Of a stretch of DNA of 64,000 nucleotides, positions 14,159 to 20,150 are shown piece after piece. The translations under genes were made by a program, and so were the position numbers. The stretch covers positions 1,302,001-1,366,000 of the forward strand of contig NZ_CP058348.1 in assembly GCF_013752535.1 (NCBI RefSeq), written 5' to 3'. The notes beneath the pieces were generated by a model, which made no database searches, was not told the origin of the DNA, and saw only the letters and a program-made list of their open reading frames with translations. How positions within the stretch are numbered: position 1 is the stretch's first letter; each line of letters starts with the position of its first letter. Source of the stretch: Bdellovibrio sp. KM01. Its GTDB lineage: Bacteria > Bdellovibrionota > Bdellovibrionia > Bdellovibrionales > Bdellovibrionaceae.

Positions 14159-15859
14159 CTAACTGTCTTTCAACAACTCTTTCTTTTCTGATTCGAGTAC
14201 TTTGGTCTTGGCAGGAATTTGGTCAGCAAAAAGCTCTGCCACTGCCGCAATCGTTAAGGAAGGATTCGTGCCCGTCGATGTGGGCAGAATACTTCCGTCG
14301 ACGACATAAAGCCCTTCATAACCAAAAACCTCACCACGAGTATTAACCAAGCCTGTTTCCTCGCTGTCACCCATAGGGCAACCACCTAAAGGGTGAACGG
14401 CAATAACTTTATCCAAATGAGTCAGGGGGTTGTCCAGGAAAGTTCCTCCCAGATTTTCTGCGACCTTTTTCATTTCCTCGCGCATGCGATTGAAATGTAA
14501 AGAACTGGTTTTTATGTCCCAGTTGATGACGGTCTGGCCATCCTCTTGAAGGGAAACCACGCCATCGGAACGATCGCGACCCATTCCCAAAAGAACCATC
14601 GCTTTACGCGTAAATGATCCGCGATCCAAGGCCGATGCAAAATCATCACCGACATTGATTTCAGTGTTTGTTTTTAGACCCAGAATTTTGCGGAAATATT
14701 TTTTCAAAGTGCTTCCCATAAGGCAAAGCGCGCCGATCATACCAGAGATTTGCGGGACCTTGCCGGAAATATACCAAGCGATAGCATTGGGAAAGCCGGC
14801 GTCTTCCAGATACATTCCATGCGGAAATCCGTCTGGATAGTTCTTTAAAGAGTATTTGATGGCACCCGTGATAACCGGTCCGTTTGTGGGATCCAAGTTT
14901 TCTTTCGTGTTTAAGACCATCCCCAACAAATCACCATTGCCACACCACTTTTGACCCAACCAACGATTGAGTTTTGGAAGACTGCCGCTCTTTTTCATTT
15001 TCAGTAACAGGGACGTCGAGCCCACCGAGCCTGCAGACAACACCACCTTTTTGGCCGTCAAAACGATTTCCTGGGCAGGAAACTGCGGCACATGAAAGGT
15101 GATTTTATAGTGATCATTGATGTATTCGATCTTGCTAACCTCCGCCTGAGTTCTGACGTCAAGGCTGCCGGCATTCGACTTTAGATTTCGTGCGCGGAAA
15201 ATATAGTTTAAGTCTAAAGTGTTTTTTGCGTGGATATTGCAACCCAGATCACATTCGCCACACTTGTTACATTTAGATTGAATAGCACCGTGGGAGTTCA
15301 AGGTCTGATGACCCGGGAATTCACCCTCAAAGCGCACAGCCAAAGGCGGCAATTGAAACTCTGCCGGAGTCAGCGCTGCGGGATTCTGCTGCATTTGCAG
15401 GGAGGCCTGTCGAAGGGCCGCGGTTTTTGGAGTGTCCTGATAATAGGGGTCACGGTTAAAAGGATAGGGGCGAGCTTCCATCATCGAAATGACTTTGTCG
15501 TAGTAGGGTTCTAGCTTCTGTCTGGTAAATCCACCAGGCCAGCCAGCGAAAAATTCTTCAGGCATGCGATACAGGACATTCGCGTAAATCAAACTGCCGC
15601 CGCCCAGGCCACTTGCCGTCAAGGTCATGACGTCACTGCCCGGAGTATCCCGAAACTCCATCAAACCGAATTTGCCGTCTTCGGGATCCCAAAACATATT
15701 TTCCTGAATTTCGTTCGGGCGACGTGGGAATTCGTGCATTTTCCATTGGCGACCACGTTCCAATAAGCAAACGTTGTATCCTTTTTCCACCAGACGACAT
15801 GACATCACCGAGCCGCCAAAACCAGAACCAATCACCACATAGTCGAAATCAAGCTTCAT
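14159..15859 (-). CDS. GMC-family FAD oxidoreductase (cholesterol-oxidase-like)
   Basis: 566 residues. The FAD-binding Rossmann motif is VVIGSGFGGSVMSCRL (GSGFGG at 11-16), GLGGGSLIYANVLYR is near 84-98, and the GMC C-terminal block HPLGGCPMGD precedes GTNPSLTIAAVAE. Family members oxidise alcohols; this subgroup includes cholesterol-oxidase-like and aromatic/aliphatic alcohol dehydrogenases. A four-Cys cluster (C197, C200, C203, C207; SKCNKCGECDLGCNIHAKN) resembles a ferredoxin-type binding site. It is third in a tight operon after the alpha/beta hydrolase and DUF6765 gene (12-nt gap). AAGGA precedes the start. No signal peptide is seen. Confidence 0.88.
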   Translation of the reverse strand: MKLDFDYVVIGSGFGGSVMSCRLVEKGYNVCLLERGRQWKMHEFPRRPNEIQENMFWDPEDGKFGLMEFRDTPGSDVMTLTASGLGGGSLIYANVLYRMPEEFFAGWPGGFTRQKLEPYYDKVISMMEARPYPFNRDPYYQDTPKTAALRQASLQMQQNPAALTPAEFQLPPLAVRFEGEFPGHQTLNSHGAIQSKCNKCGECDLGCNIHAKNTLDLNYIFRARNLKSNAGSLDVRTQAEVSKIEYINDHYKITFHVPQFPAQEIVLTAKKVVLSAGSVGSTSLLLKMKKSGSLPKLNRWLGQKWCGNGDLLGMVLNTKENLDPTNGPVITGAIKYSLKNYPDGFPHGMYLEDAGFPNAIAWYISGKVPQISGMIGALCLMGSTLKKYFRKILGLKTNTEINVGDDFASALDRGSFTRKAMVLLGMGRDRSDGVVSLQEDGQTVINWDIKTSSLHFNRMREEMKKVAENLGGTFLDNPLTHLDKVIAVHPLGGCPMGDSEETGLVNTRGEVFGYEGLYVVDGSILPTSTGTNPSLTIAAVAELFADQIPAKTKVLESEKKELLKDS

Positions 15860-15871
15860 ATAGATAAATCC

Positions 15872-16975
15872 TTACGCGACACAAATTTGATATTTAGGCA
15901 AAACGTCATGCAGAACCGTAAAGCGATAGAATAACAAAGCATCATGCATCAGCTTCCAGTTTGATTTTAAAAAATCCTCTTTGTAGGGAACATTGGTAAA
16001 TTCAAAATCGTCATTCAGCTCAAAGTCCTCAAAGGCTTCGGCGAGCCAACTTTCGGGACCTTCGGGAGAATACTTCCACGTGTCGGTGCCGAACTGAAAG
16101 CTTCCGCATTGAATATGCTCGCGCCATTTTTCCAGACGCTCATCACCTTCTTCGCTGTCGATGCTTTCAAGCAGTTCCTGCACTTTGCGAAGATCCTGAT
16201 CAAAAATTTTTACGATGGGGAGATTGTTGGCCTTGCGCACTTCCTGATAAAATTCCAGAACGTGTTTTACGGCGAGCATATAGTCAGCAGGATTATTGCG
16301 TTGTACTGTATGCCCTTGCCAGTCTTGATAGCTCCAGCGCAAATAGGGGAGATCCGGATAGGAAAGTACCGTTCCGTGACCGATGGGATTGTACTCGCCC
16401 ACAAAAAATGAACGAACCCAATCATAAAATCTGCGAAAAGGATTCCTGCGATAAAACTTTTTCCGATAGTTCATCATCCCTGTATCCAAAGCACCTTCAC
16501 CATCATAGATATCGCCCACTTTGTTGATCTTATGGGTGATGCCTGCAAAGCCCTGGTGAGCCCAGGTATCAACAAAGGCATGGGTGGTGACACCCAACAG
16601 GTGATAACCGAAAGTCTTATTAAAATTTTGAACACAGCTTTTAACGACGTCCTGAGCAATCGCGCTGTTGGGGCGGCAGACTAATTTTTGCGCCAGGGGA
16701 TCAACGCTGGAATCACGAACTTCATTGCCGGGTATAAAGTGAAAGGGAATCCACACGTGATGGTTGGCCAATTCTTTAAAATTTCGATAGTCCAGCATCT
16801 TGTGGGCACTGGCGCGAAATTCATAGGCGGAGCAGTTCTGAAATAAAATTGTGCCGGAATTGACGGCATCATCGACATACTGTGAACTGCTGGCGATGGT
16901 ATTGGCTTCAAAAGGGGTAAAGCCACTCATTCGAGCCAAGATGTAAGTAACTCCCAGATGAAAATCGATTTGCAT
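15872..16975 (-). CDS. DUF6765 family protein
   Basis: 367 residues. The N-terminus MQIDFHLGVTYILARMSGF and the block ASSSQYVDDAVNSG match the DUF6765 pattern, which I recognise from family members with MQIDMHYYGTY- and AQYVDDN-like starts. Several His/Asp clusters (HHVWIPFHFIPGN, YHLLGVTTHAFVDTWAHQGFAG) recall the helical metal-binding sites of the phospholipase C/P1 nuclease group, so a metal-dependent hydrolase is plausible. Function is not established. It starts 1 nt downstream of the hydrolase stop, so translational coupling is likely. Confidence 0.75.
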   Translation of the reverse strand: MQIDFHLGVTYILARMSGFTPFEANTIASSSQYVDDAVNSGTILFQNCSAYEFRASAHKMLDYRNFKELANHHVWIPFHFIPGNEVRDSSVDPLAQKLVCRPNSAIAQDVVKSCVQNFNKTFGYHLLGVTTHAFVDTWAHQGFAGITHKINKVGDIYDGEGALDTGMMNYRKKFYRRNPFRRFYDWVRSFFVGEYNPIGHGTVLSYPDLPYLRWSYQDWQGHTVQRNNPADYMLAVKHVLEFYQEVRKANNLPIVKIFDQDLRKVQELLESIDSEEGDERLEKWREHIQCGSFQFGTDTWKYSPEGPESWLAEAFEDFELNDDFEFTNVPYKEDFLKSNWKLMHDALLFYRFTVLHDVLPKYQICVA

Positions 16976-16976
16976 A

Positions 16977-18719
16977 TTAGACCTTTTGTTTTTTTAAGAA
17001 TGCCAGAATTTTTGGAAAGACTTCGATGTGGGCATACTGGCCCATGAAAGTATCTTGATGTCCATAACCTGGAACTTCGAAATACTCGACGGCGGCCTCG
17101 TTTCTGCCTTTCTTTAAAGCTTCATAGGTCATTTTGTTTGAGCCGGGAAAAATATTGTTCTCGGCTCCGCTGATAAATAGTGTCGGCGGCATGTCTCTTT
17201 TTTGACATTCTTGCAGATAGTTTTTCGACTTATCAAAAGAGACGGAAGCTTTCGCGAAAAGCATTTTTCGAATGTGTCGATAGTAGTGAAAGCTGGTACC
17301 ACCAAATAAGTCCACCAAGCGACGGTGAGTCGTTGGATGGATATTTCGATGAACGTAGGCCGCTGGATATCCCCAGCCCCACATGAAGCTGACCAAATGA
17401 CATGCGGGCTCTTTGCATTCATGACGAATCCCGCGCTCCATCCAGTAAAGCCATTTCCCAAATCCCGGTCCCGGGAAGTAAGCCATGCGCGGGCTGACGT
17501 AAGCATATCCAAAAACATACTCCAAAACTTCGGGCCCAAAGAGCATTTTGATAAATGCCTGCCAGCGAACTTTGGGGGTGAGGGACACGCTGTTTGAAAC
17601 GATACTGGAAATACCTGTGACGTGTCCACCGGCCAAGGAAGCCATGAATGAAATTGAACCGACGCAGTGACAGACCACGTGAATCTTTGTGTCTTCGCCG
17701 ACCTGTTTGCGGATAAATTCCACAGCAGTGGGGATGTCATTTTTAGCGATATCGTCGAGGTTATAGCGATGAGGGCCTAGATTATAAGTGAACCGACCGC
17801 TGCCTCGCCAATCCAGCGACCATACATCGGTAAAGCCATTGCTGTGGAGGTAGTTTACGAAGTTTTGATGCTCGGGCATGATGAACATATCTGTAGAGGT
17901 GGTCAGTCCATGCAGGAGGAGAACTATGTTTTTCGATTCTTTGACTTTAAAGCGCTGAACAGAAATCGTCAGGCCATCCGGAGTGTCTAACGGATAAAGA
18001 TTTTTCTCTCCCATAACCACACCTTGAGTGGTGTTCATAGGATAAATGTGTTCATTCCACCTTGCTGCGGTCGTGGTGAAAATAAATGGCGCATAGGACT
18101 GCCAAAGGTTTTTCGCAAAAACATTCAGAAACTTTACCATGGCCTCTTGCTCTGCGAGAGCTGAGGGAGCGTTACTTTTAAAGGTCGTCAATTGCTTGAT
18201 AAAGTCGCTGACTGAGATGCGCAGAATTCCCACGCCATTGACGTTCTTGGTTTCGCCTGGATTATAATCAGAGTGTCCTTCCCAGATATAATAATACAAT
18301 GTCGTTGTTTGCGACCACATCTCGAAGGAATCCTCTTTGATCACTTCCTTAAAACCAAAGAATGTCCAAGGTTTCCCCTGTTTGTCTTTCAGGAAAAGCG
18401 TGTAGTGCATTTCTTTTGCCGTGTCCCTGTCTGAACTTGCCTCGGGGCGTACGAAAAGATTGAACAGTCCTTTTTCAATGTTGAAATCAGTAATCGTACC
18501 CATGGCTCCGGCTTGCAGCTGGGGATCGGCAATAAAAGAATCCACATCTGAAACTTGAATTGTCAGGGTGAATTCAAACGGTACTCGAGGCGAGGACTCT
18601 TCCAGAGTTTCAAAGTCAGATTTTTTTAAAGGGTTTTGAGTTGAGAGAACGAATGGTTTGGCCATGAAATGGCCAGCCATTCTCTCGGTGAATTCGAGAG
18701 TGGTTTTTGAAAGAGTCAT
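16977..18719 (-). CDS. Alpha/beta hydrolase with Cys nucleophile and N-terminal extra domain
   Basis: 580 residues. The first about 220 residues form an unassigned domain (PFEFTLTIQVSDVDSF, MHYTLFLKDKQGKPWTFFG) seen in proteins linked to GMC oxidoreductases. The rest is an alpha/beta hydrolase: oxyanion block LLLHGLTTSTDMF at 267-279, nucleophile elbow CHCVGS at 350-355, where Cys352 stands in for Ser, and His in VPGYGHQDTFMG near the end. In bacteria such domains can be fused to GMC oxidoreductase; here they are separate. I chose ATG 18719 (AAAGGA 5 nt upstream) over GTG 18722. It is first in the three-gene operon. Confidence 0.8.
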   Translation of the reverse strand: MTLSKTTLEFTERMAGHFMAKPFVLSTQNPLKKSDFETLEESSPRVPFEFTLTIQVSDVDSFIADPQLQAGAMGTITDFNIEKGLFNLFVRPEASSDRDTAKEMHYTLFLKDKQGKPWTFFGFKEVIKEDSFEMWSQTTTLYYYIWEGHSDYNPGETKNVNGVGILRISVSDFIKQLTTFKSNAPSALAEQEAMVKFLNVFAKNLWQSYAPFIFTTTAARWNEHIYPMNTTQGVVMGEKNLYPLDTPDGLTISVQRFKVKESKNIVLLLHGLTTSTDMFIMPEHQNFVNYLHSNGFTDVWSLDWRGSGRFTYNLGPHRYNLDDIAKNDIPTAVEFIRKQVGEDTKIHVVCHCVGSISFMASLAGGHVTGISSIVSNSVSLTPKVRWQAFIKMLFGPEVLEYVFGYAYVSPRMAYFPGPGFGKWLYWMERGIRHECKEPACHLVSFMWGWGYPAAYVHRNIHPTTHRRLVDLFGGTSFHYYRHIRKMLFAKASVSFDKSKNYLQECQKRDMPPTLFISGAENNIFPGSNKMTYEALKKGRNEAAVEYFEVPGYGHQDTFMGQYAHIEVFPKILAFLKKQKV

Positions 18720-18878
18720 CACAATCCTTTGTTTATGTCAGAATAGGGGGATTGGAATTTTCAGTAAATCAACAAAAGCGAATGAGGACCAATGGGCGGT
18801 GGGCGAAAGTTGCAGGCAAAAGTACGCATCGGGGGCTAGAGAAAAGTCGGTGCTGTTTACCTACGGTTTTGTAAGAAA

Positions 18879-20150
18879 CTATACGGTGAGAGGAATTTTT
18901 ACGACGACCTTGGTGCCACGAGGGTGATGAGGCACAGCTTCTTCCTGCGAAGTGATTACAATGCTTCCACCCATCATCGTCAGATATTCTTTTACCAGCG
19001 GCATTCCGTAACCAGTGCCTTTTTCTCCGTGAGTTCCTTCACGTGTTGTGGCGGCATCCAAATGGAAAATCTTATTCAGTAGATTTTCGGGCATACCGAT
19101 TCCATAATCCTGAATCTCGATGACGGCCATTGATTCTGTGGAATACGCCCGTAAGTCAATGCGATCGCCTGGCAACGAAAACTTCACGGCGTTACTAAGG
19201 AGGTTCGCCAGGACGACGTTATTCAGAATCGTTTTTTCACTGTTGACGACCATTTTGTCGCGGCTTAAATCCAAAGCGATTTTGATTCCTTTTTGGGTCG
19301 CCAGAGCTTCTGATTTCTCCATGACTTCATTCAGCACAATCGCAATAGAGATTGGAGTTAGCGGCATGGATGCCTTGCCATCTTTAACCGATTTAAGGTG
19401 ACGAACTTGATGTAAGAGATTGTTGATGTCGCTGACCGCTCTCTCCATTTTATCCAGTTGTTGTGCCATAGGAGCTTCTTGTTCTTGGTCTTCGCGGGCT
19501 TTGATAAGGTTGTATGTCATTGACGACAAAGTGTTGGCGACATCATGTAAAAGCACGCGCAACAGGTTTTCCACGTCCCAATGCTTTTCCTGCAGTCTTT
19601 TGGTATATTTTTGCTCGCCTTTTAAATAGAGGTGAGTCGTGATGCCTGCGAACATCAAAAAGGTGCAGACGTTAAAACTTTTTTCAAAATCATAATCCCC
19701 ATAGGCTGCTATGATATTCACGCTGCCACCTTGAAGTTTTAAAATCCAGAACCACACCATGGTGGCAAAGACAATTGTGTACCCGATAAATGCGCCGGCG
19801 GTGCTTAACAGAACTCCAAAGCCGAAGGGAACGATTGCCAGCCAAAAGATCCCAGGTGCTGCGACTCCACCAGAGAGATAAAGCAGATATACCAAGACCG
19901 CTGTTGCGAGCAGACCGCAAGACAAAGCGGCGAGTCTATAGTTCTTGAAGCGATAAAGAATAATTGGGGGGACAAGGGCGGTTCCAATCCAAAATGAAAA
20001 TAAGCCAGGATTGTAGGTAGACACGCGATACTCGAAATTAAACTTGAAGAGGTAAATAGCGGACATAGCCAGGCTGACGAAATAAATCATCTTTAAATAA
20101 AACAGTCGCTTTTGCTGGGCTTCCTCAGCTGTCTCTTTAGGCTCGAACAT
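18879..20150 (-). CDS. Membrane histidine kinase
   Basis: 423 residues. The N-terminal part has about six transmembrane helices in the first 180 residues, with no large periplasmic domain, like 5TM/7TM-type sensors. The HisKA-type block LLRVLLHDVANTLSSM carries the phospho-His (H202). The HATPase_c domain shows N-box VVLANLLSNAVKFS, G1 box IQDYGIGMPENLL and G2 box GTGYGMPLVKEYL. No response regulator gene is next to it, so it is an orphan kinase. It is 156 nt upstream of the hydrolase operon on the same strand, so cotranscription is possible. Confidence 0.92.
   Translation of the reverse strand: MFEPKETAEEAQQKRLFYLKMIYFVSLAMSAIYLFKFNFEYRVSTYNPGLFSFWIGTALVPPIILYRFKNYRLAALSCGLLATAVLVYLLYLSGGVAAPGIFWLAIVPFGFGVLLSTAGAFIGYTIVFATMVWFWILKLQGGSVNIIAAYGDYDFEKSFNVCTFLMFAGITTHLYLKGEQKYTKRLQEKHWDVENLLRVLLHDVANTLSSMTYNLIKAREDQEQEAPMAQQLDKMERAVSDINNLLHQVRHLKSVKDGKASMPLTPISIAIVLNEVMEKSEALATQKGIKIALDLSRDKMVVNSEKTILNNVVLANLLSNAVKFSLPGDRIDLRAYSTESMAVIEIQDYGIGMPENLLNKIFHLDAATTREGTHGEKGTGYGMPLVKEYLTMMGGSIVITSQEEAVPHHPRGTKVVVKIPLTV

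Follow-up and report, generated by a model that had tools for sequence, protein, structure and literature searches.

The genome of Bdellovibrio sp. KM01 carries, within the 64,000 nt stretch analysed here (the window), three ORFs arranged head to tail on the minus strand and specifying an alpha/beta hydrolase, a DUF6765 protein and a GMC oxidoreductase. The locus raises the question of whether these genes form a unit and, if so, what kind of compound their products would act upon. The hydrolase and DUF6765 genes are separated by 1 nt (position 16976), and the DUF6765 and GMC genes by 12 nt (15860-15871). Pfam matches were found to Abhydrolase_1 (2e-10), DUF6765 (4.8e-95), GMC_oxred_C (1.3e-19) and GMC_oxred_N (3.2e-11), and together with the ORF coordinates they bear out the trio and spacing given in the initial annotation. 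The features are:

16977..18719, minus strand: alpha/beta hydrolase, 580 aa from the ATG at 18719 (a GTG start at 18722 is also possible), with an N-terminal domain and an acid-lipase-type catalytic domain
18084..18719, minus strand: ABHN domain (hydrolase residues 1-212), without a Pfam match, recurring in other architectures
17664..17666, minus strand: Cys352 of the hydrolase, predicted nucleophile, in HCVGS where the lipase has GHSQG
17157..17159, minus strand: Asn521 of the hydrolase, at the catalytic-Asp position as judged by motif
17058..17060, minus strand: His554 of the hydrolase, predicted catalytic base from conservation and profile alignment
15872..16975, minus strand: DUF6765 protein, 367 aa, with a predicted metal-dependent phosphoesterase-like fold
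14159..15859, minus strand: GMC oxidoreductase, 566 aa, cholesterol-oxidase-like, without a visible signal peptide
15239..15271, minus strand: CxxCxxCxxxC motif of the GMC protein (residues 197-207), possible Fe-S site
14264..14395, minus strand: GMC catalytic motifs HPLGG (His489) and GTNP (Asn532), by motif match
18879..20150, minus strand: membrane sensor histidine kinase, about 156 nt upstream of the operon, a possible (weak) regulator

Conservation and spread of the gene cassette

The KM01 genome (3.96 Mb, one contig) has a single DUF6765 gene, and the distribution of DUF6765 is patchy: a sample of 291 genomes from the phylum listed 21 of the same genus, and 7 of these carry it. Nine further full-length Bdellovibrionota loci were read, and in every one the hydrolase, DUF6765 and GMC genes occur together, in the order hydrolase-DUF6765-GMC in eight and hydrolase-GMC-DUF6765 in the ninth (L024). 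When neighbourhoods were compared, some of them on draft contigs and possibly cut off at contig ends, the cassette trio, sometimes with the histidine kinase, made up the sole common genes for most locus pairs; one common neighbourhood was seen among L025, L026 and L029, and another was shared by the window and L030. The presence of the same cassette in otherwise differing neighbourhoods indicates that it has moved as a unit.

When 84,980 bacterial and archaeal species genomes were scanned, 536 DUF6765 relatives were retrieved, of which the best 80 (not a random sample) were analysed. Among these, 22 loci adjoin GMC and/or hydrolase-family genes, and all 42 of the neighbouring genes concerned lie on the same strand as DUF6765. 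The associated loci belong to Bdellovibrionota, cyanobacteria (Nostocales, Hapalosiphonaceae and Xenococcus), Amphritea and other gammaproteobacteria. The cassette is therefore conserved and its genes are linked, as the initial annotation had supposed in treating them as one unit, and chance clustering is ruled out by the recurrence across loci and the invariable same-strand placement. From the gene spacing and co-inheritance we infer that the three genes are co-transcribed. A promoter and terminator scan was uninformative, with promoter-like sites fewer than the shuffle mean and none directly upstream of the operon. A role in defence was considered and rejected, as PADLOC gave no match to any of the three proteins, and a search for phage carriage was likewise without a match.

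In the remaining 58 of the best 80 loci, DUF6765 has neither GMC nor hydrolase neighbours. Some solo copies lie beside glycyl radical enzymes, a setting with no evident link to lipids, and others are found in a plasmid context, the plasmid copies being near restriction genes. The hydrolase family was entirely absent from all 24 genomes examined that carry an unassociated DUF6765, and in four associated control genomes it adjoins DUF6765. Its background frequency is low: with seeds counted, it is present in just 3 of 194 genomes from cyanobacteria and 8 of 398 from Pseudomonadota (1.5-2%). The initial annotation had asked whether DUF6765 genes are only rarely found near the other two, and the answer is mixed, since association at 22 of 80 loci stands far above the 1.5-2% of random genomes that carry the hydrolase family, but most DUF6765 genes lie elsewhere.

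Viewed from the other partners, DUF6765 is near the GMC-hydrolase unit in only two of seven non-seed genomes carrying that unit. GMC and hydrolase thus form the core pair, which DUF6765 joins recurrently. In two further Amphritea genomes (L108 and L114) the gene in which GMC and hydrolase are fused (described below) is absent, and its flanking genes and DUF6765 are retained. In a quick DUF6765 tree the associated copies are scattered, with at least five changes between associated and unassociated states on well-supported branches, some of which may be losses.

Homologues of the upstream histidine kinase adjoin the cassette in several distant loci, making the kinase a weak candidate for its regulator. 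It is not an obligate part of the cassette, as there is a paralogue (53%) in the same genome and homologues remain in cassette-free genomes.

The hydrolase and its N-terminal domain

The predicted structure of the hydrolase (pLDDT 84.7) was used in a whole-model structure search that covered residues 228-580. It matched human lysosomal acid lipase (6v7n) with a Z score of 33.5 over 329 residues at 2.9 A, gastric lipase with Z 32.3, and PHA synthase with Z about 25. Profile searches gave a concordant result, with gastric lipase at 1.4e-15 and acid lipase at 4.8e-11. The model thus has an acid-lipase fold, but the Ser-Asp-His triad with its GxSxG motif is absent, and Cys352, Asn521 and His554 are present instead. 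The profile alignment pairs Cys352 with the catalytic Ser and His554 with the catalytic His of the lipases; for Asn521 the pairing with the catalytic Asp comes from its G-x-x-N motif and not from coordinates. Among 39 relatives spread over several phyla, 38 have Cys352 and all 39 have Asn521 and His554; the triad-bearing relatives include those of Rhizobium, Leptospira, Bernardetia, Pseudonocardia and Rhodococcus. These data strongly suggest an acid-lipase fold with Cys-His-Asn catalytic residues. The protein shares its fold and sequence profile with the lysosomal acid and gastric lipases, which are cholesteryl ester hydrolases, and differs from them in the Cys for Ser replacement, the Asn at the acid position, an added N-terminal domain and the lack of a visible signal peptide. 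A literature search, incomplete in coverage, returned no paper on a Cys-His-Asn triad in an acid-lipase fold, and none on a fusion of GMC and hydrolase.

Such fusions do exist, as stated in the initial annotation, and were found in Amphritea (1140 aa, L093 and L104), Rhizobium (1152 aa, L174), Leptospira (1134 aa, L178) and Bernardetia. In the two Amphritea loci DUF6765 directly follows the fusion gene, and most of the fusions sampled are without DUF6765. They have the same GMC family, ABHN domain and Cys-His-Asn triad as the KM01 proteins, whereas in the window the two enzymes are encoded by separate genes with DUF6765 in between.

The ABHN domain has no match in Pfam, and none below E 1 among PDB sequences. 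A profile search located it on the N-terminal side of the lipase, on the C-terminal side of GMC (in Nostocales) and between these two enzymes; in cassettes from Xenococcus (L077) and Trichormus (L090) it follows a patatin phospholipase at the C-terminal end, a layout also seen in L148. A free-standing version of about 197 aa lies beside GMC and hydrolase genes in Pseudonocardia, and another, a weak match, beside the hydrolase in Rhodococcus. The architectures found are GMC-ABHN-ABH, GMC-ABHN, ABHN-ABH and patatin-ABHN. This shuffling suggests that ABHN may couple the cassette enzymes or present a shared substrate to them.

The DUF6765 protein and the GMC oxidoreductase

The DUF6765 protein matches Pfam PF20551 with 319 bits (cut-off 26.6) over positions 1-324 of 325. 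Residues invariant over 67 sequences include M1, D4, H6, D35, H58, D62, H79, H132, D136, H140, H200 and D208, a pattern that had pointed to zinc phospholipase C and P1 nuclease before any fold search. When the predicted structure (pLDDT 86.3) was searched with VIA-align, the top 15 rows were all phospholipases C of the alpha-toxin type or S1/P1-type nucleases (139-156 residues; Z 7.5-4.8, all below 8), and unrelated folds scored Z 2.6 or less. Foldseek matches to the model were weak (E>1). Profile-profile comparison with S1-P1 nucleases gave an hhalign probability of 0.2%, and phmmer found no match among sequences of solved structures.

The metal ligands of P1 nuclease are W1, H6, D45, H60, H116, D120, H126, H149 and D153, and the ligand-type residues of DUF6765 follow this order (N-terminal residue, H6, D, H, H, D, H, H, acid). 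The first residue of both lies five positions ahead of the first His, and in the VIA-align superposition residue 1 of the DUF6765 model is the first aligned residue, opposite the first mature residue of superfamily members. An N-terminus of MQ[IVL]D[FGM]H was present at all 83 loci compared, and at 67 of them an earlier start is impossible. In secreted DUF6765 relatives from another genus of the family, Y-D-x-D-T-H directly follows the apparent signal peptide cleavage site; these proteins keep H6, D35, H132, D136, H140, H200 and D208, while H58 is unaligned, with a His a few residues further on. S1-P1 nucleases from the same phylum begin with W-[GAS]-x-x-G-H after their signal peptides. The same spacing from position 1 to His6 is thus seen in three groups that reach their N-terminus by different routes.

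There are also differences from the zinc phospholipase C and S1-P1 nuclease families (PF00882, PF02265). DUF6765 has Met for Trp at position 1, Hx3Dx3H in place of Hx3Dx5H, a longer stretch ahead of H200, a C-terminal extension, no visible signal peptide and no sequence-profile similarity. Given the absent profile link and the differing motif spacing, what we propose is a superfamily resemblance and not membership of the S1-P1 or PF00882 families. The structural model suggests, less strongly than for the hydrolase, a fold like that of these enzymes. No paper on DUF6765 was found in the literature search, which was incomplete in coverage.

The GMC protein has GMC_oxred_N and GMC_oxred_C domains, an FAD motif and the catalytic His and Asn motifs, in common with cholesterol oxidase and other GMC oxidoreductases. 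Its closest solved relatives are cholesterol oxidases, but it scores far under the cut-off of the NCBIfam cholesterol oxidase family NF058674 (208 bits against 850), carries a CxxCxxCxxxC motif and has no visible signal peptide. The motif is kept in all the cassette GMC proteins checked that have the region, and is a possible Fe-S site. The KM01 genome has one other relative (37% identity).

Proposed function

No signal peptide was visible on the hydrolase, DUF6765 or GMC protein, with cellular location judged by eye. We put at an even chance that the trio is a cytoplasmic lipid-processing module, in which the three enzymes would act in one pathway on a hydrophobic, lipid-like substrate. DUF6765, as a metal-dependent phosphoesterase-like enzyme, would release or trim a phospho group, with its start Met taking the role of Trp1 as a metal ligand. 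A Met before Gln is normally retained, and Met1 would be kept here because residue 2 is Gln. The hydrolase would use its Cys nucleophile to form a thioester acyl-enzyme, leading to deacylation or transacylation, and the GMC enzyme would carry out FAD-dependent oxidation of a hydroxyl on the same or the resulting compound. The lipid theme draws on the acid lipase match, the cholesterol oxidase relatives and the patatin phospholipase of sister cassettes, which fits a lipid substrate. Against a joint module, DUF6765 does not need the other two, as it occurs without them in most of the best 80 loci.

A biosynthetic function is rather unlikely. The Cys hydrolase would be an acyltransferase working with the GMC oxidase to build or modify a lipid, and DUF6765 would prepare or trim a phosphorylated precursor. 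PHA synthase uses a Cys nucleophile, and the thiol nucleophile together with the structural resemblance to that enzyme is what keeps this reading in play. The Rhodococcus relative of the hydrolase adjoins a polyketide synthase and a thioester reductase, and upstream in Nostoc lies an SDR whose best NCBIfam match (below cut-off) is mycolate reductase. These contexts are few, and the top sequence and structure match of the hydrolase is acid lipase, a hydrolase.

The initial annotation had guessed at a hydrophobic alcohol or ester, such as a sterol or prey lipid. The general class fits the folds, with the hydrolase resembling lysosomal acid lipase and the oxidase cholesterol oxidase, while the specific substrates are not supported, given that signal peptides are not visible and that the cassette also occurs in cyanobacteria, Amphritea and other non-predators. 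Catabolism of steryl esters, with the hydrolase freeing a sterol, the GMC enzyme oxidising it and DUF6765 handling the surrounding phospholipid, would match the nearest solved relatives of the two enzymes, but is improbable in view of the low cholesterol oxidase score, the absence of visible signal peptides and the occurrence of the unit in lineages, cyanobacteria among them, for which sterols are not an expected food. Very improbable is a functionally independent DUF6765 merely travelling with the GMC-hydrolase pair, for which the many solo loci (including glycyl-radical-enzyme and plasmid contexts) and the two Amphritea genomes without the fusion gene speak, and against which stand the invariable same-strand placement, the short gaps in the window and the repeated changes in the tree (some maybe losses), by which the pairing seems to have been repeatedly gained or kept.

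New here are the fold resemblance of DUF6765, the Cys-His-Asn triad of the hydrolase and a shuffled ABHN domain absent from Pfam. Returning to the lipid-processing module, it is a tentative and somewhat doubtful further step to see the cassette as an undescribed lipid system that combines a thiol-triad acid lipase, a GMC oxidase possibly carrying an Fe-S site, a cytoplasmic tri-metal phosphoesterase with a Met1 ligand, and ABHN as a mobile link. DUF6765 now has a testable identity, and the hydrolase points to a lipase family, spread across several phyla, with a papain-like Cys-His-Asn triad in an acid-lipase fold. ABHN is an unannotated domain linking lipases, patatin phospholipase and GMC oxidases. 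If Met1 of DUF6765 proves to coordinate metal, a cytoplasmic enzyme would have one of its active-site residues set by the start codon itself.

The histidine kinase beside the cassette

18879-20150 of the window: sensor histidine kinase

Homologues of this kinase adjoin the cassette (alpha/beta hydrolase, DUF6765 and GMC oxidoreductase) in other genomes (loci L023, L024, L028, L031 and L038), and a paralogue with 53% identity lies about 22 kb away in the same genome (G000:C1:1298139-1299368).

The hydrolase and its N-terminal domain in other layouts

After the hydrolase, Nostoc-type cassettes encode a protein of about 489 aa that has no annotation and a RoxA-like cytochrome c; L045, L060, L086 and L103 share this layout with the following loci:

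L048, 13018-14487
L056, 14690-16261

In Amphritea, the gene for the GMC-hydrolase fusion is present in L104 and L093 but absent from L108 and L114, and its site is between a PhoD-like gene and DUF6765. One hydrolase relative (L147, 8303-9475) lacks the cysteine predicted to be the nucleophile and has glycine there in the alignment; it is perhaps inactive, or misaligned at this position. The unannotated N-terminal domain of the hydrolase (ABHN) is also fused to patatin phospholipase:

L077, 13176-14723: patatin-ABHN fusion, patatin detected
L090, 13410-14960: patatin-ABHN fusion, patatin detected
L148, 9803-11341: probable patatin-ABHN fusion, read as such because its length and layout match those of L077 and L090

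DUF6765 in other settings

Secreted proteins of 540-580 aa from another genus of the same family (L011, L012, L014, L015 and L016) have a DUF6765-like start, the mature sequence opening with YDxDTHF. Plasmids of Aeromonas, Vibrio and Photobacterium carry a different three-gene cassette, adjoining restriction, ThiF/CobQ/Mov34 or Fic genes, in which a lipoprotein-like protein (about 220 aa) and a protein of about 90 aa precede DUF6765, the last gene:

L020, 5031-7074
L021, 4297-7065
L022, 5060-7065

In L052, L054, L070, L082, L087, L095, L101, L106 and L111, which come from several proteobacteria among other organisms, genes upstream of DUF6765 encode a glycyl radical enzyme, its activase and a protein of about 212 aa that has no annotation.
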